DNA of 64,000 nucleotides from assembly GCF_014202225.1 (NCBI RefSeq), contig NZ_JACHGE010000001.1:353320-417319 (forward strand), written 5' to 3'. Position numbers and translations under genes: made by a program. Origin of the DNA: Algibacter amylolyticus. Lineage in GTDB: Bacteria; Bacteroidota; Bacteroidia; Flavobacteriales; Flavobacteriaceae. Position 1 is the stretch's first letter. Every line of letters begins with the position of its first letter. The notes beneath the pieces are model-generated. The model ran no database searches and had not been told where the DNA came from. It saw only the letters and a list, made by a program, of their open reading frames with translations. Below are positions 54,538 to 64,000 of this stretch, in pieces.

Positions 54538-55476
54538 ATGAAAACGATAAAATTACTTTCTAGTTTTGCTTTAATAGCAACTCTTTTTACATCTTGTTAT
54601 ACAGAGGTTATAGTCGATGATTTTAATGAGGTGCCACCACTTACAGCAAATCAGTTATTAAACTCTTACGAGTTGTGGTATGTAGATATTAATAGCACTG
54701 TTGGTTATGGCGAATCGCCGTTTTTACAAAAAGCGTTTACAGTATCGTTTATTAATGGCGTGTTATACGCTAATAATAATATTGCCGGTTTAGGTAGCAA
54801 TGGTAATGGATATGGAATTGATGTTGCTAATTATGATGCTTATAACATGATTTTAGATGTGCAACATGATATTGATGGTTTTTCAACTTTTGATGTTTAT
54901 GAAGTAGATTATAATACTATTGAGTTGTACAATCCAAACAACGATACCTCGTATTTTTTAGATGGTTATCAACGTAATAATTTTGATTATGATTTTGTGT
55001 TTTATGATAACATCCATTATTTTTTACAAGAATATGATGCTTGGGAAAAAACATATACAAGTGAATATGGCGCTATAAACGAGTTTGATAATGAAAATTA
55101 TTTACAGTTTTTAGCTGGCGGAAATGATTCTGAATTTAGAAGCTCGCAAGACACAAACATTAATAACACAAATAACTTGTACTGGGATTACACAGGTGTT
55201 TACGGTGTAGGAGATGTAAGTGGTAATGAAACTTTAAAAACTTTAACATTAGATTATGATTACTTAGGCAATGAATATTTTGAGCTGAGCGTTATAAATG
55301 ACAGCAAGATAGAGTTGTTTCATCCTGCTTCTGAAACGGTTTATGAATTTGAAGGAAGAGGATATATTCAGTATTTAAAATCTGATAGTAAAAAACAAAA
55401 CAAAGTTAAAGTAGATAAAATGCGTAAGCATAGAAAAGATAAAGTAGCAAACCCTAGAGAAAATACAAGGGTTTAA
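54538..55476 (+). CDS. Conserved lipoprotein of unknown function
   Basis: The 312-aa protein has a lipoprotein signal (LFTSC, Cys about residue 20) and then a duplicated beta-rich layout: LNSYELWYVDINSTVGYGES, AFTVSFINGVLYANNNIAGL, then LQNWDY-like second half with LYWDYTGVYGVGDVSG and LTLDYDYLGNEYFELSVIND. The two halves each end in an 'S/T-I-E-L-(Y/F)-.P' motif (IELYNPNN, IELFHPAS), pointing to an internal repeat. The tail is strongly basic. I recall close homologues in flavobacteria carrying a nicotinic acid mononucleotide adenyltransferase label, but no such motif is visible. It is preceded by a sigma-54-like promoter and followed by a strong terminator. Confidence 0.75.
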   Translation: MKTIKLLSSFALIATLFTSCYTEVIVDDFNEVPPLTANQLLNSYELWYVDINSTVGYGESPFLQKAFTVSFINGVLYANNNIAGLGSNGNGYGIDVANYDAYNMILDVQHDIDGFSTFDVYEVDYNTIELYNPNNDTSYFLDGYQRNNFDYDFVFYDNIHYFLQEYDAWEKTYTSEYGAINEFDNENYLQFLAGGNDSEFRSSQDTNINNTNNLYWDYTGVYGVGDVSGNETLKTLTLDYDYLGNEYFELSVINDSKIELFHPASETVYEFEGRGYIQYLKSDSKKQNKVKVDKMRKHRKDKVANPRENTRV

Positions 55477-55516
55477 AAAAAGATAGAATTAGCATTCTTA
55501 TAGAGTGCCTTAATTA

Positions 55517-55582
55517 AAAATTTTGGTTGGTTATTTAGTTTAGAAACCGCTTAAAGCACTCTGCTTTAAGCGGTTTCTTTTT
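55517..55582 (+). repeat. 66-bp direct repeat R1, including terminator
   Basis: The 66 bp run from AAAATTTTGGTTGGTTATTT to GCTTTAAGCGGTTTCTTTTT and recur at 59280-59345 with one difference (T for A in the loop). The right half is a hairpin, GAAACCGCTTAAAGC, 5 nt, GCTTTAAGCGGTTTC, followed by a T tract; here it is the terminator of the lipoprotein gene at 54538. The two copies flank the 55604-59088 cassette. Confidence 0.9.
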
Positions 55583-55603
55583 TTTTTTTTGAATAAGCTT
55601 GCA

Positions 55604-55837
55604 CTATTTTTTAGAGTTGTCTCTTAATTTTTTAATACCAAATGCCGCAGCCCCAATAATTAAAGCAGCAATGCCACCATCTAGAGGTACGCCTTGGTTA
55701 TTATCGATAACATTATCTGAATCATCTCCAGATCCAAAAGCTGGAGGACCTTGTGGTCCTTGAGCCATTAGGCTAGTTGTAGATATAAAGGCAAAAACTA
55801 AAAGCACTGCTTTAATGGTTTTTAGTAAATTTTTCAT
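55604..55837 (-). CDS. Small secreted protein with PID-CTERM-like C-terminal sorting signal
   Basis: The 77-aa protein has a signal peptide (AVLLVFAFISTTSLMAQ), a short Gly/Pro/Asp-rich mature region and a three-part C-terminus: VPLDGG (residues 50-55), a hydrophobic stretch (IAALIIGAAAFG) and a basic tail (IKKLRDNSKK). This is the layout of exosortase-type sorting signals, and the P-x-DGG box is like short Bacteroidota proteins annotated as PID-CTERM. It lies 20 bp downstream of the giant FG-GAP protein gene on the same strand and is a paralogue of the protein at 61144. No exosortase is adjacent to this copy. Confidence 0.8.
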   Translation of the reverse strand: MKNLLKTIKAVLLVFAFISTTSLMAQGPQGPPAFGSGDDSDNVIDNNQGVPLDGGIAALIIGAAAFGIKKLRDNSKK

Positions 55838-55857: not shown

Positions 55858-58800
55858 TTAGTTAATAATTAATTTTTTGGTAGTTGTTAATCCTTTTGAG
55901 GTGAGATTTACAAAATATACCCCGCTGTTTTTAATAAAGTTAGCATTAACAGGTATTCTGTTTCCTGTTGCTAGACCATTTGTTTCAAATACTTTAGCAC
56001 CTAAAGCATTAAATATGGTTAGTTCTAAATCATTTATTCCATTAGGGATATTTAAAAAGAAGTTACCCGTAGTTGTAGGGTTAGGGTATAATAGAACCTT
56101 ACTTAATTCTGTATTTGCAACGGCTAATGTTTTTTGGAAAATAATTTTAAATCTATCTCCAGCAAATGAGGCTGGAATGCCAGCATCTATACTATAGGCA
56201 TAAGGCGTTTCTCCGTTTTGAAGGAGTTCTGTAGTTTGGTTTAAATAGGTATCTACTAAAAACGGTGTGTCGCCTTGTAAAGCCGTTGCTTTAGCTACTA
56301 ATACATAATCTGTATGACGATAGGTATTAATTTCTAATTGAATTTCGTCTGATGTAGAAGGTGTTGCTCTGCTATCCACACTTAAAAAATTACCATCAAT
56401 ATTTGTGGCTAAATTTTCATCTAAGTTTGTAAATTTAGTAGCATCACTAAAATCTACATCATTATTTCCGTTATCATCAAATAAAATTAGAACACCATCT
56501 GCAACCGTTCCGTTTTCAGTTGTAAATGCGCTGCTTTCGTATAAATTTAAGCCCAATTGCCCGGTGCTTGCTGTTTTAGCAGAACTTTTAAAGACGTTTG
56601 TTTCTTGGGTTGAAGTATGTTTAAACGATGGTCTGAACACTATATAATTACCGCGAGGATGATAAATTCTAGATTGTACAAAACAACCTTGGCCTACTTG
56701 TAAATATTGATTGGCTTCGGAAGCTCCTTGCGAACTATTATTTCCAGTTGCTAAAATAACGGTAACATAGCCACCTCTAGTGTTTATAGTTGGATCCCAA
56801 ACCCAATAAAAGTTGGAATTTACGTTCAGGTCTAATTCATATGCAATTACACTATTCATGTTTACTTGTGCTTGATACGGATTTCCAACAAAACTAAAGC
56901 CGCCATTCAATTCGTTTAAATAGGTGTGGTAATAACCAGTGTTCTCAGCAGTGAGTTCTCCTTTTGAAACTAAAGTTGTTGGTGATGGTGTGGCATCGTT
57001 ATCAAATAAATCTGTAGTTCTGTCTCCTCTTACAAATAAACGGTAGGGTGTACCTGCTGTTAAAATAGTATTATCGGTATTAGGAATAGGGTCCCATGAA
57101 GGGTACAAGTTATTAAAAGTATACATGGATGGATTGCCACTGTTGGTGGCATCGAAACCATTAGCGCCAGAGCTAGATCCAGTTATATGCGTAGCTTGTT
57201 GCCAGTTATCTGCAATAGGGGCAGACGTGGTTACAGGTGTGCTTAAAAAACGGAAGGCTCTTTTTGCGGGAATGTAACGCTCTATGGTATATTCTCCTAT
57301 AAATTTAGCAGCATTGTGTTGACTTGCAATAATAGCCGTACCAGTAGCGTCCGATTTAAAGGTTACCGTTCCGTCATTGGTCATTACTGTTTTAGTGTTG
57401 AGTATCACATTTGGATTAAAGGTTAAGGAAGCATCTGTTTCAACGGTTAAAGAAGCATCTTCTTCTAGTAATAAATCTTGCCCAACTACTAAAACAGGAT
57501 AATTAGGCATCCCAGAAGGAATAAGAATATCGCTATTAGTTGCTAATCCTGGAGCGTTATTGCATTGCCAGTTACTGGCATTGGTCCAATCGGTATTTAT
57601 ATTCCCTGTCCAGATATGGTTATTTAAGGTAACATTTACAGTAAATGTACATTCTATGCTTTCCGCATCGTTGGTAGCTGTTGCTGTAACGGTGGTTTCA
57701 CCAATAGGGAACATGCTGCCAGAAGCTGGTAGGTATGTAATAGTTGGTACTGGAGTACCTGTAGCTGTGGCTTCAAAATTAACAATAGCACCACATTGTC
57801 CTACAGTAGTATTAACACTAATAGCATCAGGACACGTTATAGTTAAAGGAGTTTCCGGCTTAAAAAAGTAGGCAGATCCTGAATCATATCCTGCATCATC
57901 GTTAAAAGGAGCCCCCGCAATGGCGTAGTCTCCTGAAATGGTCACGGAATTCCCGAAATAGTCCTGATTAGCCCCGTCTGTGGGGGTAAGTTTATCCTCT
58001 TGGTTCCATGTGGTGCCTGTGCGCCCAAATACATAGGCAGCCCCTGAAAAAGGTGCCTTAACATCGGCATAAACAGCCCCCACAATAGCGGTGTTTCCAG
58101 AAATGGCCACGGACCACCCGAAATAGTCGCCAGCAGCCCTATCTGCAGCAGTAAGTTTAGCCTCTTGGTTCCATGTGGTGCCAGTGCGCGCAAATACATA
58201 GGCAGCCCCTCTATTACCTCCCGTATCATCGTCTCGATAAGCCCCCACAATAGCGGTGTTTCCAGAAATGGCCACGGACCACCCGAAATGGTCATAAGTA
58301 GACCCTTCTGCAGCGATAAGCTTATCCTCTTGGTTCCAAGTGGTGCCTGAACGCACAAACACATAGGCAGCCCCTGAATCATATCCTGCATCATCGTTTA
58401 AATAAGCCCCCACAATAGCGGTGTTTCCAGAAATAGCAACAGAAACCCCGAATAGGTCATAATCAGCACCATCTGTAGCGGTAAGTTTAGCTTCTTGGGT
58501 CCATGTGTTGCCTGAACGCACAAACACATAGGCAGATCCTGAAGCACTTCCTGAATTATCGTCTTTATGAGCCCCCACAATAGCGGTATTTCCTGAAATG
58601 GCAACAGATCTCCCGAAGAAATCGCCAGCAGCCCCGTCTGCAGCAGTAAGTTTAGCCTCTTGGGTCCATGTGTTGCCAGTGCGCACAAACACATAGGCAG
58701 ACCCTGAAGTATTTCCTGCATCATCGTCTAGATCAGCCCCCACAATAGCGGTGTTTCCAGAAATGGCCACGGACCACCCGAAATAGTCGTCAGCAGCCCC

Positions 58801-59088
58801 GTCTGCGGCAGTAAGTTTAGCCTCTTGGGCCCATGTGTTGCCTGTAAGCACAAACACATAGGCAGCCCCTGAATTAGAGCCAGCATCATCGTCTCCATAA
58901 GCCCCCACAATAGCGGTGTTTCCAGAAATGGCCACGGAATACCCGAATTCGTCGCCAGCAGTCCCATCTGCTGCGGTTGCTTTAATAATTTCATCCCAGT
59001 TTTGAGATTTAGACAGTTGCGGGCATAAAAAAGTTATGCTACATACAAATACCAGCAGGTAGCGTTTAATGTGTAAAATGTTTTTCAT
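55858..59088 (-). CDS. FG-GAP repeat surface protein with HYR domain and T9SS sorting domain
   Basis: About 1076 aa from the ATG at 59088; an in-frame TTG at 59112 would place nine extra residues before the signal peptide (LLVFVCSITFLCPQLSKSQ). Residues 45-430 hold seven tandem 55-residue FG-GAP-like units (FG.SVAISGNTAIVGA, DDDAG, AAYVFVRTG, W.QEAKL). A HYR-type domain (ITCPDAISVNTTVGQCGAIV) follows, then a long module starting HIWTGNINTDWTNASNW and TIERYIPAKRAFRFLSTPV shared with the protein at 61412. It ends in a type A T9SS domain (LLYPNPTTTGNFFLNIPNGI, GVYFVNLTSKG, KKLIIN). It is exported by type IX secretion. Its partner gene is the small protein at 55604. Confidence 0.9.
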   Translation of the reverse strand: MKNILHIKRYLLVFVCSITFLCPQLSKSQNWDEIIKATAADGTAGDEFGYSVAISGNTAIVGAYGDDDAGSNSGAAYVFVLTGNTWAQEAKLTAADGAADDYFGWSVAISGNTAIVGADLDDDAGNTSGSAYVFVRTGNTWTQEAKLTAADGAAGDFFGRSVAISGNTAIVGAHKDDNSGSASGSAYVFVRSGNTWTQEAKLTATDGADYDLFGVSVAISGNTAIVGAYLNDDAGYDSGAAYVFVRSGTTWNQEDKLIAAEGSTYDHFGWSVAISGNTAIVGAYRDDDTGGNRGAAYVFARTGTTWNQEAKLTAADRAAGDYFGWSVAISGNTAIVGAVYADVKAPFSGAAYVFGRTGTTWNQEDKLTPTDGANQDYFGNSVTISGDYAIAGAPFNDDAGYDSGSAYFFKPETPLTITCPDAISVNTTVGQCGAIVNFEATATGTPVPTITYLPASGSMFPIGETTVTATATNDAESIECTFTVNVTLNNHIWTGNINTDWTNASNWQCNNAPGLATNSDILIPSGMPNYPVLVVGQDLLLEEDASLTVETDASLTFNPNVILNTKTVMTNDGTVTFKSDATGTAIIASQHNAAKFIGEYTIERYIPAKRAFRFLSTPVTTSAPIADNWQQATHITGSSSGANGFDATNSGNPSMYTFNNLYPSWDPIPNTDNTILTAGTPYRLFVRGDRTTDLFDNDATPSPTTLVSKGELTAENTGYYHTYLNELNGGFSFVGNPYQAQVNMNSVIAYELDLNVNSNFYWVWDPTINTRGGYVTVILATGNNSSQGASEANQYLQVGQGCFVQSRIYHPRGNYIVFRPSFKHTSTQETNVFKSSAKTASTGQLGLNLYESSAFTTENGTVADGVLILFDDNGNNDVDFSDATKFTNLDENLATNIDGNFLSVDSRATPSTSDEIQLEINTYRHTDYVLVAKATALQGDTPFLVDTYLNQTTELLQNGETPYAYSIDAGIPASFAGDRFKIIFQKTLAVANTELSKVLLYPNPTTTGNFFLNIPNGINDLELTIFNALGAKVFETNGLATGNRIPVNANFIKNSGVYFVNLTSKGLTTTKKLIIN
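57885..59000 (-). repeat. Seven tandem 165-bp coding repeats
   Basis: The word AATAGCGGTGTTTCC (or a close variant) recurs at 57919, 58084, 58249, 58414, 58579, 58744 and 58909, exactly 165 bp apart each time. The units encode the FG-GAP-like repeats and keep high nucleotide identity, so they are recent or homogenised. Open frames in other frames here are by-products. Confidence 0.9.
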
Positions 59089-59279
59089 GTTGGTTAGATT
59101 AATTAATAGCAATTGTTAAATCATTTACTTATTGTTAAAAACAAGTGAATACGCTATTAAATAAATTAACCAGGGAGAGAGATTCTTAATGAGAGGTCTA
59201 ATATTCAGATTTAATTTAGCGGTGCAAAAGAAATCCGATAATCGGTAATTAAATCATTATGAATGGATTATCTGAATTG

Positions 59280-59345
59280 AAAATTTTGGTTGGTTATTTA
59301 GTTTAGAAACCGCTTAAAGCACTCAGCTTTAAGCGGTTTCTTTTT
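59280..59345 (+). repeat. 66-bp direct repeat R2, including an orphan terminator
   Basis: A 65/66 match to R1 (55517-55582) in the same orientation. The hairpin and T tract are intact but no plus-strand gene ends upstream of it; the neighbour on the left is the minus-strand FG-GAP gene. It lies in the 334-bp gap before kbp, the rest of which shows no recognised feature. Confidence 0.88.
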
Positions 59346-59422
59346 ATTTTTATTTGTATATAATGTGACTTATTACTAGTTATTGCGTCTTAATAATGTT
59401 AACCTTAAAAATAAAGTAGACA

Positions 59423-60575: not shown

Positions 60576-61154
60576 TTAGACAAGATTAGTTTGTTTATTC
60601 AATGTTTTAAAATTAAATTGAATGTTTCGAATGTAAAACATCCAAATAATAACGATAACAGAATAAATAGCCCATTTAAGTAAGTAACGGTGTGCAAGAT
60701 CAAAATAGGTCTGATGATGTAAATTAATGTAAGCCAAACCTGCACATCTAAAAATATTAAGTATATGTATTATTAAAATTCCAGAAATTAAATATAAAAT
60801 TTTACGCCAAAATTTAGAAGGAAAACAAAAAATCAATCCCATATATAGCATAAGTACAAACAGACCGTTACATCCGTCGGCTATATAAACTACCTTAATA
60901 TCATTAAAATATATTTGAGGTAATTCAGTGTAATATTTTTTTGCGTATTCTCTTTTTACGCTAAAATTTGAAGAGTTTGTAAAAGTATTTAAAACTTTTG
61001 TAGAATAGGTTCCAATATTTTCGGATAAGTGGTAATTAACGGCTCTTAAATCCAATGAAAAAAGAAATTTACATAAAACATAAAACAGTAAGGCTTTAAT
61101 AAAGATAAGCCTTACTGTAAATGGAAATAGTTTATATAATTTCTTAAAGTGCAC
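60576..61154 (-). CDS. Exosortase family transpeptidase-like membrane protein
   Basis: The 192-aa protein is a multi-span membrane protein with the exosortase/archaeosortase triad: Cys95 in VYIADGCNGLFVLMLY, Arg136 in HILNIFRCAGLAYI and His155 in FDLAHRYLLKWAIYS. Hydrophobic segments flank each residue and a soluble loop of about 50 residues precedes Cys95. Size is close to the short exosortases (XrtF-like) of flavobacteria, but I cannot place it in a named subfamily. It starts with GTG at 61154, 11 bp inside the end of the small sorting-signal gene, so the two are translationally coupled. It should cut at the VPLDGG signal of its neighbour in the inner membrane. Confidence 0.85.
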   Translation of the reverse strand: MHFKKLYKLFPFTVRLIFIKALLFYVLCKFLFSLDLRAVNYHLSENIGTYSTKVLNTFTNSSNFSVKREYAKKYYTELPQIYFNDIKVVYIADGCNGLFVLMLYMGLIFCFPSKFWRKILYLISGILIIHILNIFRCAGLAYINLHHQTYFDLAHRYLLKWAIYSVIVIIWMFYIRNIQFNFKTLNKQTNLV

Positions 61155-61407
61155 TATTTTTATTATCCCTTAGTTTTTTAATACCAAATGCAGCGGCTCC
61201 TAAAAGAAGTATCGCTAGTCCGCCATCTAATGGAACATCGCCATTATCAACAGTGTCTGTAGGTGGTCCTCCAGGTCCTGATCCAGGTCCTCCACCAGGT
61301 CCAAATTGCGCATTTAAGTTGTTGGAAAAGCATACTAATGCAAAAACAATAATTATTCTACTAACCGTCTTTGAAAATGTGTTTCTTGTGTTTTTCATTA
61401 CATTCAT
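61144..61407 (-). CDS. Small secreted protein with PID-CTERM-like sorting signal, next to exosortase
   Basis: The 87-aa protein (or 84 aa from the ATG at 61398) has a signal peptide (RIIIVFALVCFSNNLNAQ), a Gly/Pro-rich mature part (FGPGGGPGSGPGGPP), and a C-terminal VPLDGG (residues 58-63), hydrophobic LAILLLGAAAFG and basic KKLRDNKNS. It shares GVPLDGG/GDVPLDGG, GAAAFGIKKLRDN with the 77-aa protein at 55604. It begins 4 bp after the giant T9SS protein stop and overlaps the exosortase start by 11 bp. It is the likely cognate substrate of that enzyme. The mature part is only about 25 residues, so it may be a tether or a matrix component. Confidence 0.85.
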   Translation of the reverse strand: MNVMKNTRNTFSKTVSRIIIVFALVCFSNNLNAQFGPGGGPGSGPGGPPTDTVDNGDVPLDGGLAILLLGAAAFGIKKLRDNKNSAL

Positions 61408-61411
61408 TTTT

Positions 61412-64000
61412 TTAATTAATATTTAACTTTTTGGTTGTTGTTCTGCCTTTAGAGCTCATTTTTACAAAGTAGATGCCTTGGCTAAGGAAAGACCTTGTGT
61501 TTATGGAGATTTTGTTTCCTGATTTTAATCCCGATTTAGAATATAATTTAGCTCCTTGTACATTATAAATAGTTACTTCTAAGTCGTTAATATCAGCAGG
61601 GATATTTAAGTAAAACTTACCTGTTTTAGAAGGGTTCGGGTACATTATAATCTGTTCAGCAACATTAGTTTCGGTAGACAAAAGTGCCGATGAAAAAATG
61701 ATTTTAAATCGATCTCCAGCTACCGAATTAGGATTGTCAAAATCAACAGTATAGTCATAGTTCACCGTTCCCGTTTCTGGTATTTTAGTTGATACATTAG
61801 TATAGTTGTCAACTAAATGGGCAGTCGTGCCTTTTATTTCACTTGCTTCTAAAACTATAGTGTAATTTGTGGTTCTGTATGTATTAATTTCTAATTGAAT
61901 TTCTTCAGCATCCATTGGGGCAGCTCTGTTTTCGATACTTAACAATACACCATCATTATTAGTGGCAATATTTTCATCTAGGTTCGTTAATTTAGGAGCA
62001 TCATTAGCATCTATGGCATTAGTTCCTTGATCGTTAAACAGAATTAACATACCATCAGTTTTCGATTTGTTGGCTGCTAAGGCGCTAGTTTCATATAAAG
62101 ATAATCGTAATTGACTTATTTTAGATGCTTTTTTATTTGAAGTTTTGAATACTAAAGTTTCTGATTCTGATGTTGCCTTACTTGCTTGCGTGAAACTTAA
62201 TGATGATTGGCCTGCTCCATCAGTATTTACCCATCCAGATTGACCAGCTTGTAAAAATTGGTTAGCATCTGACTCATTTGTGGAAGCGACACCGGTAGAA
62301 GCATTAATGGCAGTATATGCACCTCTATAACCTAAGGTTGGATCCCAAATCCAATAGTATATTGTACTAATATTGGTAGCACCCGTTGTTAATACCGTAT
62401 TCATATTAATTGGGGCTTGAAAAGGATTGGCAAAGGCAACAAATTGTGATGCGTTAAGATTAATGCTAAAAACACTTGTTCCATCGTTTTCCGCAGTCAA
62501 CTCGCCTGTTGCTCTTAAAGTAGTTTCTGAGGATGGTGCATTATTATTTGTTAAATCGGTAGTTCTATCTCCTCTAACCAAGGTATGATACACCGTACCA
62601 GTATTTATATTAGTAGCATTTGTATTAGCCATTTGGATATAATTATTAGCTACATTATCAAAAATGTACATGGATGGATTTCCTGTATTGGTATAATCAA
62701 AACCTAATTGATTATTAACATCAGTAGATCCTGTAATGTGAGTGTCCATTTGCCAGTTGCTTGAAATAGGTGTGCTCGTATTAACAGGAGAAGCTAATTG
62801 TCGGTATGCTCTTTTTGAAGGGATATAGCGTTCTATTGTAAAATCGCCATTATAAGTACCAGTGCCTGAACCTATATAAGCAGATCCTGTGGCATCAGAT
62901 TCAAATGTAATGGTACCGCCAGCATTGTCTAGAACGCCATCGTTAGTAACCACTGCGTTTGGATTTACTGTTAATGAAGTTCCAGCTTGAACAGTAACTT
63001 TTGAACATTCATCAATATAGAGATTTTGTCCATTCATTAATATAGGATAGTTAGCTGATCCGTCATTGATAATTACATAAATACTATTAAGCGACAGTCC
63101 TGGTGCAAAGCCAAACAAATAGTTTGCTGCTTCAGTCCAATCCGAGTTAACAGCTCCTATCCAATAAAAATAATTTATTATGCCTGAAGTACATGGACTA
63201 CCTTGTGTTACTGTGATTGTGAAATCATGGGTTGGAATTGAAGGATAATAATGGTGGTTAGTGTCTTCAACTAATAAACTAATATTAAAAGGGCCTAAAT
63301 CGCTATTTCCTGGAGTACCAGTTAATACAGCTGTACCAGTAGCAGGATCAGTTGTAAGTGTGAGCCATGTAGGCAGTGGTGTTGATGGTACTAAATCAAC
63401 GGTATCTCCAAACGCAATGTCTGGGTCATTTGCCACTATGTTATAGGTATAGGTTTGATTAACTCCTACTTCCGTAACAGGTGTTGACGATACCGATGGC
63501 ACTGTATTTATTAAATGTGACACTTCATGGGTTGCCTCATCTCCATAACTATCTCTAGCCGTGAATATGGCATGTTTGTGTCCCCAATCTGATGCTTGTG
63601 TTGGCCAGCTAAAAGTTCCACTTGTTGGATTGTCAGCAACTGTTGGAAATGGGTTTAAAGATGCTCCTGCATATAATGGGATAGGATTTCCTATCATATT
63701 TTTTCCTGTAACATCAACTATTTGAACCACATCATTAGGATCTGGATCGCTAGCTTGTACGGTATAGGTAATAAGTGTACCAGGTGATACTACATAATCA
63801 TGCGTGGCTTCTGCAGGTGTAGGTGGTACATCAAATACAGGGTTTAAACTTACATTTATTGAAATTGATGTACTAGTTTGGGCTCCAATTTCGTCTGTGG
63901 CGATAAAATTAATAACATTTGTGCCTAAGTTATTTGCAGCTGGCGTCCATGAGAATGAAGTGCTAACGGTGCCATTTCCTGAAACAGGTAGTGCAGGGTT
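61412..64000 (-). CDS. Giant T9SS surface protein, partial at the right edge
   Basis: The frame is open to the window edge, so the N-terminus is missing; at least 860 residues are present. The visible part begins with Ig/cadherin-like repeats (TSISINVSLNPVFDVPPTPA, ITYTVQASDPDPNDVVQIVD, YTYNIVANDPDIAFGDTVDL, WLTLTTDPATGTAVLTGTPG). From about 63170 it continues with the module shared with the FG-GAP protein: YFYWIGAVNSDWTEAANYLF, TIERYIPSKRAYRQLASPV, VRGDRTTDL, GDRFKIIF. It ends in a type A T9SS domain (IIMYPNPSKTGKFYLNIPAD, GIYFVKMSSKG, KKLNIN). It is cotranscribed with the small sorting-signal gene and exosortase. Confidence 0.88.
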   Translation of the reverse strand, partial: NPALPVSGNGTVSTSFSWTPAANNLGTNVINFIATDEIGAQTSTSISINVSLNPVFDVPPTPAEATHDYVVSPGTLITYTVQASDPDPNDVVQIVDVTGKNMIGNPIPLYAGASLNPFPTVADNPTSGTFSWPTQASDWGHKHAIFTARDSYGDEATHEVSHLINTVPSVSSTPVTEVGVNQTYTYNIVANDPDIAFGDTVDLVPSTPLPTWLTLTTDPATGTAVLTGTPGNSDLGPFNISLLVEDTNHHYYPSIPTHDFTITVTQGSPCTSGIINYFYWIGAVNSDWTEAANYLFGFAPGLSLNSIYVIINDGSANYPILMNGQNLYIDECSKVTVQAGTSLTVNPNAVVTNDGVLDNAGGTITFESDATGSAYIGSGTGTYNGDFTIERYIPSKRAYRQLASPVNTSTPISSNWQMDTHITGSTDVNNQLGFDYTNTGNPSMYIFDNVANNYIQMANTNATNINTGTVYHTLVRGDRTTDLTNNNAPSSETTLRATGELTAENDGTSVFSINLNASQFVAFANPFQAPINMNTVLTTGATNISTIYYWIWDPTLGYRGAYTAINASTGVASTNESDANQFLQAGQSGWVNTDGAGQSSLSFTQASKATSESETLVFKTSNKKASKISQLRLSLYETSALAANKSKTDGMLILFNDQGTNAIDANDAPKLTNLDENIATNNDGVLLSIENRAAPMDAEEIQLEINTYRTTNYTIVLEASEIKGTTAHLVDNYTNVSTKIPETGTVNYDYTVDFDNPNSVAGDRFKIIFSSALLSTETNVAEQIIMYPNPSKTGKFYLNIPADINDLEVTIYNVQGAKLYSKSGLKSGNKISINTRSFLSQGIYFVKMSSKGRTTTKKLNIN

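Follow-up and report, generated by a model that had tools for sequence, protein, structure and literature searches.

A small exosortase and an overlapping PID-CTERM precursor gene as a probable enzyme–substrate pair in Algibacter amylolyticus

In a 64,000-nucleotide stretch (the window, with positions counted from its first letter) of the genome of Algibacter amylolyticus, a marine flavobacterium, we found a gene at 60576..61154 on the minus strand for a protein of 192 amino acids that is, as judged by its sequence, an exosortase, and directly upstream of it the gene of an 87-amino-acid PID-CTERM precursor (precursor 1; 61144..61407, minus strand), which is very probably the substrate that this enzyme cuts. 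This pairing is well supported, at the level of sequence, by the family models, the conserved adjacency of the genes and their matching occurrence across genomes. The two reading frames share 11 bp (61144-61154), and the exosortase is translationally coupled to its probable substrate gene; in the order of transcription, the minus strand carries a type IX secretion system (T9SS) type A cargo gene, precursor 1 and the exosortase. An earlier, sequence-only reading had described a tiny gene overlapped by 11 bp by that of a 192-amino-acid membrane protein with the exosortase triad Cys95/Arg136/His155, and the frames as well as the residues were confirmed.

The same reading had proposed searches with exosortase and PID-CTERM models as a check. 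The protein, translated from a GTG start, scored 56.6 bits against the exosortase/archaeosortase signature TIGR04178 (cut-off 23) and 30.8 bits against Pfam PF09721 (Exosortase_EpsH; cut-off 25.7), which places it in the superfamily, and precursor 1 scored 40.6 bits against the PID-CTERM model NF046080 (cut-off 26). The columns of C95, R136 and H155 did not vary across 41 aligned sequences, among them the window exosortase. Its AlphaFold2 model had a mean pLDDT of 88.1 and a pTM of 0.80. Among solved structures, no relative was found by sequence (four matches, the best at E 0.45), and a PDB fold search with the model gave 159 matches at E ≤10, none of them at ≤0.001 and the best at 0.21. At the level of subfamilies, the score was 68.3 bits for XrtF (TIGR04128, cut-off 90) and 99 bits for XrtX (NF046081, cut-off 170), against which eight relatives of the enzyme reached 100.6–126.7 bits, and it was under the cut-offs of all the other named subfamily models matched. 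In a tree of 67 proteins, 49 rows of the exosortase type lay on one side of a branch with an SH-aLRT of 99, with 6 XrtF and 12 XrtX rows outside it; this tree was built by a quick method, its XrtX rows did not form one group, and it carried a long-branch warning that included the window row. Before its construction, 13 loci had been dropped as duplicates of other rows or as broken or short frames. The window enzyme had a long branch (0.82) and paired with that of the sister species G206, also long-branched, with a support of 99. Membership in XrtX or XrtF was thus ruled out by the curated cut-offs and the tree, and the sequences place the window exosortase in a separate clade without an NCBIfam subfamily name. 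None of the scanned models covers this subfamily or the membrane partner described below; the C-terminal signal of the precursors is already covered by NF046080.

Precursor 1 (VPLDGGLAILLLGAAAFGIKKLRDN, then a terminal KNSAL) contains VPLDGG, a hydrophobic segment and KKLRDN in the order given by the sequence-only reading, which had taken KKLRDN for the very end, a place that belongs to KNSAL. The mature part, rich in glycine and proline, is tiny, as had been stated, but amounts to about 28 residues instead of about 25 if the cut is after LNA, a site judged by eye. The N-terminus was hydrophobic by a rule-based call and by eye. A second ATG at 61398, which would give 84 amino acids, may be the actual start, because homologues begin with MKN. 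Precursor 2, of 77 amino acids (55604..55837, minus strand), is a second probable substrate, with 37.9 bits against NF046080 (cut-off 26). With the type-specific profile A2, precursors 1 and 2 scored 61.7 and 57.0 bits, and with the XrtF-type profile A7, 25.0 and 24.6 bits, respectively. Extra precursors of the same type were also observed at L087, L089, L092, L093, L085, L068, L144, L153, L155 and L162, either dispersed or beside the operon; in Tamlana, the extra precursor adjoins the operon after the membrane gene. The mature parts of these extra precursors were Gly/Asn-rich at one extreme and His-, Lys- or Cys-rich at the other.

Homologous loci came from two samples. Among 199 genomes of the family, 13 loci in 12 genomes reached 102 bits or more in a comparison with the window exosortase, ahead of the next match at 58 bits; a PID-CTERM gene was directly upstream of the exosortase in 11 of these 13 loci, and a gene for a membrane protein of about 135 amino acids was directly downstream in 11 of 13. 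The second sample consisted of 47 loci from a scan of named genomes, which is biased to close kin because it was driven by two peptide patterns, and which has several genomes in common with the 13-locus set. There, the membrane gene followed the exosortase in 47/47 loci and a precursor (profile score >15 bits) was present within 700 nt upstream in 39/47. These loci came from Winogradskyella, Algibacter, Tamlana, Flaviramulus, Flavivirga, Mariniflexile, Yeosuana, Confluentibacter, Seonamhaeicola, Hyunsoonleella, Jejuia, further Flavobacteriaceae and three Chitinophagaceae/Chitinophagia MAGs. The eight loci without a precursor within that distance include one at a contig edge (L148, in which the contig starts 106 nt upstream of the exosortase) and one in which the precursor is 1.4 kb upstream, behind a cargo fragment (L156); at L165, L168, L172, L176, L178 and L183, a check of the named loci found no precursor upstream of the exosortase. 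At L077 (G124:C137, 1966-4382), whose exosortase has no precursor in front of it, the ORFs upstream include one of 483 amino acids that presumably resembles a membrane-bound O-acyltransferase. Because of the 39/47 upstream precursors and 47/47 downstream membrane genes, direct coupling is the rule in this clade, so that the earlier view of a directly coupled enzyme and substrate as unusual does not hold here. The gene set was not found in the titles and abstract starts of open-licence PMC articles, where PID-CTERM was likewise without papers; nevertheless, the kind of system is already known, since NCBI has PID-CTERM and XrtX models.

The membrane protein of about 135 amino acids had no match above cut-off in NCBIfam (five proteins, with one sub-threshold match) or in Pfam (two proteins). 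It was found in all 11 other exosortase-bearing genomes of the 199, and a profile search at E 0.01 indicated its absence from the window genome, which is rated 99.99% complete. A search for a relic gave a best match of E 0.22 downstream of the window exosortase and of E 0.022 in the whole window. A 4.5-bit match downstream of the G206 exosortase, on the opposite strand at E 0.012, was not accepted as a relic, and the 19 kb fetched around that exosortase, whose gene likewise overlaps its own precursor gene, contained no membrane gene. Within the window genus, the exosortase was present in 3 of 10 genomes, one of which (G201) has the membrane gene. Furthermore, the second exosortase copy of G145 (L078) has no membrane gene beside it and has the longest branch in the tree (1.66). 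We infer a joint evolution of the exosortase and its membrane partner, and a shift in constraint once the partner was lost. No homology was detected between this partner and the XrtF partner or ORFs beside XrtX, in a comparison with shallow alignments, in which the XrtF partner and the ORFs beside XrtX were also mutually unmatched and the proteins were chosen by position, except L005 (TIGR04127). The comparison with a profile of XrtX partners, likewise shallow and with those partners taken by position, gave E 0.11.

Each of the two precursors immediately follows a T9SS cargo gene; neither the gene of precursor 2 nor the two cargo genes had figured in the sequence-only reading. Cargo 1 (61412..64000, minus strand) extends past the window end and has 1179 amino acids in L079; it scored 44.2 bits against the type A sorting model TIGR04183 (cut-off 23), and 4 nt separate its stop from precursor 1. 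Cargo 2, which contains FG-GAP repeats (55858..59112, minus strand; 1076 amino acids from the ATG at 59088), scored 45.6 bits against the same model and stops 20 nt before precursor 2. The two cargos are identical in 282 of 578 C-terminal residues, a common region in which Pfam finds the sorting tail only and of which the structural model has a mean pLDDT of 55.9. The heads of such cargos vary, the domains above cut-off being FG-GAP in cargo 2, MopE in L142, PPC in L152 and laminin G in L184, with none in L145 and L143. A small tripartite ORF that begins no more than 350 nt downstream was present behind 20 of the 43 cargo ORFs examined: behind 15/17 with at least 47% identity (13/15 without two duplicate loci) and behind 5/26 below that identity. 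The rows of at least 47% identity include two close kin (L150 and L156), and many of them had been retrieved for lying next to an exosortase. Among 28 cargo loci chosen without a link to an exosortase, with no more than 6 candidates per genome scored, such an ORF was behind 7, four of them in XrtF genomes without the window-type exosortase (G087, G053, G042 and G174). A general rule by which such a cargo always has a precursor behind it is rejected by these counts, and only within the close cargo subfamily are cargo and precursor tightly linked, as 15/17 compares with 5/26 and 7/28.

Some loci around cargo genes showed further arrangements. In L212, L214, L215 and L231, from XrtF-only genomes, the small ORFs behind the cargo have the degenerate tails APIDGF, PLPINGF, APIHF and APIDGL, which suggests that the sorting signal is broader than the NF046080 motif. 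Hyunsoonleella aquatilis (L184:1-6001) has two cargo genes, each with a near-identical precursor 9 nt behind it. In G206, the exosortase set is on a contig other than that of the cargo in L208 (G206:C9), which is without a small tripartite ORF and has near neighbours as in the window (a homologue of the gene at 54538 and LysM genes). In the window, a direct repeat of 89 nt with a terminator-like hairpin flanks the 3.7-kb pair of cargo 2 and precursor 2, with the left copy at 55500..55588 and the right copy at 59263..59351 (91% over 89 nt; core 70/72 nt). Since the locus L072 of G049 has the same neighbours with a single repeat copy and no cargo–precursor pair, the pair looks, from this comparison, as if it was inserted or duplicated at a terminator.

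On another contig, the window genome also encodes an XrtF, which scored 238.6 bits, and the TIGR04127 partner of XrtF, at 144.6 bits. The genome further has a third, poly-proline PID-CTERM peptide, which is just below the NF046080 cut-off of 26 with 25.7 bits and scored 105.9 bits with profile A7. The earlier proposal of an assignable pair stands with a reservation, as XrtF and a second PID-CTERM type reside in the same genome. Because the profile scores separate the two types (A7 vs A2), the local exosortase is a better candidate than XrtF for processing the two window precursors. Across the 199 genomes, profile A2 gave 21 matches of at least 53.2 bits, exactly in the 12 enzyme-bearing genomes, the next being 36.6 bits; 20 of the 21 were training sequences of the profile. 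The partner profile matched in 11/12 enzyme genomes and 0/187 others, all 11 matches being training rows. Therefore, the independent evidence is confined to the 187 genomes without such matches.

The poly-proline precursor, of about 65 amino acids, is encoded outside the window (G000:C1:286906-287097; L003, L099) and has relatives in L080-L099 and L234-L291. Its proline-rich mature part ends in GLPIDGG, after which come a hydrophobic stretch and a basic tail. Its gene converges with a neighbouring ORF (MFTGIIE), which we take to be riboflavin-synthase-like (ribE), in 53/58 loci and, in a second set, in 11/12 XrtF-type loci. At E 1e-5, profile A7 matched in 110 of the 119 genomes with XrtF and in 3 of the 80 without it, these three being 84–88% complete; at E 1e-3, it matched in 116/119, although some of these matches (e.g. 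G100) cover no more than a signal peptide within a longer frame, and the best match is in some cases not the ribE-linked copy. In the single sampled genome of genus-f1-g127, the match was weak (E 0.008), and the peptide may have diverged in some genera. The poly-proline peptide is thus a candidate target of XrtF by its sequence and distribution.

In the mechanism that we favour, the precursor would be exported through Sec and lose its signal peptide at about LNA|Q, and its C-terminal hydrophobic segment would keep it in the inner membrane. C95 of the exosortase, with H155 and R136, would then cut near PLD/GG, and the new C-terminus of the peptide of about 28 residues would be passed to an envelope acceptor; precursor 2 would be handled by the same local exosortase. 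By analogy with archaeosortase A, the acceptor would most likely be an amino lipid, and we hold it as a tentative proposition, somewhat short of an even balance, that the acceptor is a lipid. It may also be that the enzyme only cleaves and the peptide is freed as a secreted peptide or signal attached to nothing. The tiny and varying mature parts (Gly/Pro-rich vs Cys-, His- or Lys-rich) would suit such a product, whereas archaeosortase A attaches its targets to lipid according to PMC7157517; the sequence is not decisive here, and we regard release as rather unlikely. The fixed adjacency, the overlap and the small size of precursor 1 could even point to a membrane protein that stays uncut as a subunit of the exosortase instead of a substrate, but a subunit would hardly carry, near its C-terminus, a sorting signal that belongs to a named class or have further same-type copies far from the enzyme, as in G049, G133, G145 and G124, which makes this reading very improbable.

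The cutting of both precursors by the local exosortase has also to be weighed against the possibility that this exosortase is a decaying relic after the loss of its partner and that XrtF processes both precursors. The missing partner, the long branch of the enzyme, and the presence of XrtF with its TIGR04127 partner in the window genome are in line with such decay. On the other hand, the frame is open and the triad intact, and the dN/dS was about 0.31 in comparison with G206, at a dS of 1.26 that is near saturation; this substitution pattern is one of purifying selection, and the enzyme still looks constrained. In addition, G206 keeps the enzyme and the overlapping precursor with no partner in the 19 kb fetched, and type-specific precursors were present in 0 of 107 XrtF genomes without the local exosortase. 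Taken together, decay appears improbable, and the local exosortase remains the preferred candidate for the enzyme that cuts the two precursors.

The placement of each precursor immediately after a cargo gene raises the possibility that the peptide acts together with the T9SS cargo. It is conceivable, if somewhat doubtful, that the mini-peptides are dedicated partners of T9SS surface proteins and that the cargo C-terminal region and the anchored peptide form a surface complex. Such a complex, if true, would link two envelope-sorting pathways, and the position of the precursors directly behind T9SS cargo genes offers a testable bridge between them. Since, in the clade of the window exosortase, the enzyme, the substrate and the membrane partner of about 135 amino acids share an operon, a two-gene experiment could reveal both the action of such an enzyme and its acceptor.

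Among known systems, XrtX/PID-CTERM (NF046081, NF046082 and NF046080) is alike in the exosortase fold, in the PID-CTERM signal and in having a small membrane protein associated with it, and a PID-CTERM ORF was directly upstream of XrtX in 1 of the 12 loci viewed (L191). It differs in that the window enzyme and eight relatives score below 170 bits and belong to a separate clade, and no NF046082 partner was found downstream of the window exosortase or among five partners of its relatives. XrtF with its TIGR04127 partner (Fjoh_1448/1449 in Flavobacterium johnsoniae) likewise combines a small exosortase with a small membrane protein encoded next to it and is co-resident in 12/12 genomes bearing the window-type exosortase; unlike in the window, where the enzyme is also below the XrtF cut-off, the probable peptide of XrtF is not adjacent but usually beside ribE. 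An xrtF deletion with phenotypes in biofilm and sand colonisation has been published. EpsH/PEP-CTERM is related through the Pfam Exosortase_EpsH match, but the window enzyme shares its operon with one tiny substrate, which bears a PLDGG signal instead of PEP. A single EpsH acts on many full-size substrates encoded at scattered sites and sits in exopolysaccharide clusters. Archaeosortase A of Haloferax volcanii, whose ArtA model gives the window exosortase 19 bits (cut-off 75), shares the tripartite C-terminal signal and, as reported in PMC7157517, attaches its targets C-terminally to lipid; a thioester at the active-site cysteine has been proposed there, with the route from thioester to ethanolamine as a speculative model. 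According to the same source, its targets include the full-size S-layer glycoprotein, whereas the mature product in the window would have only about 28 residues.
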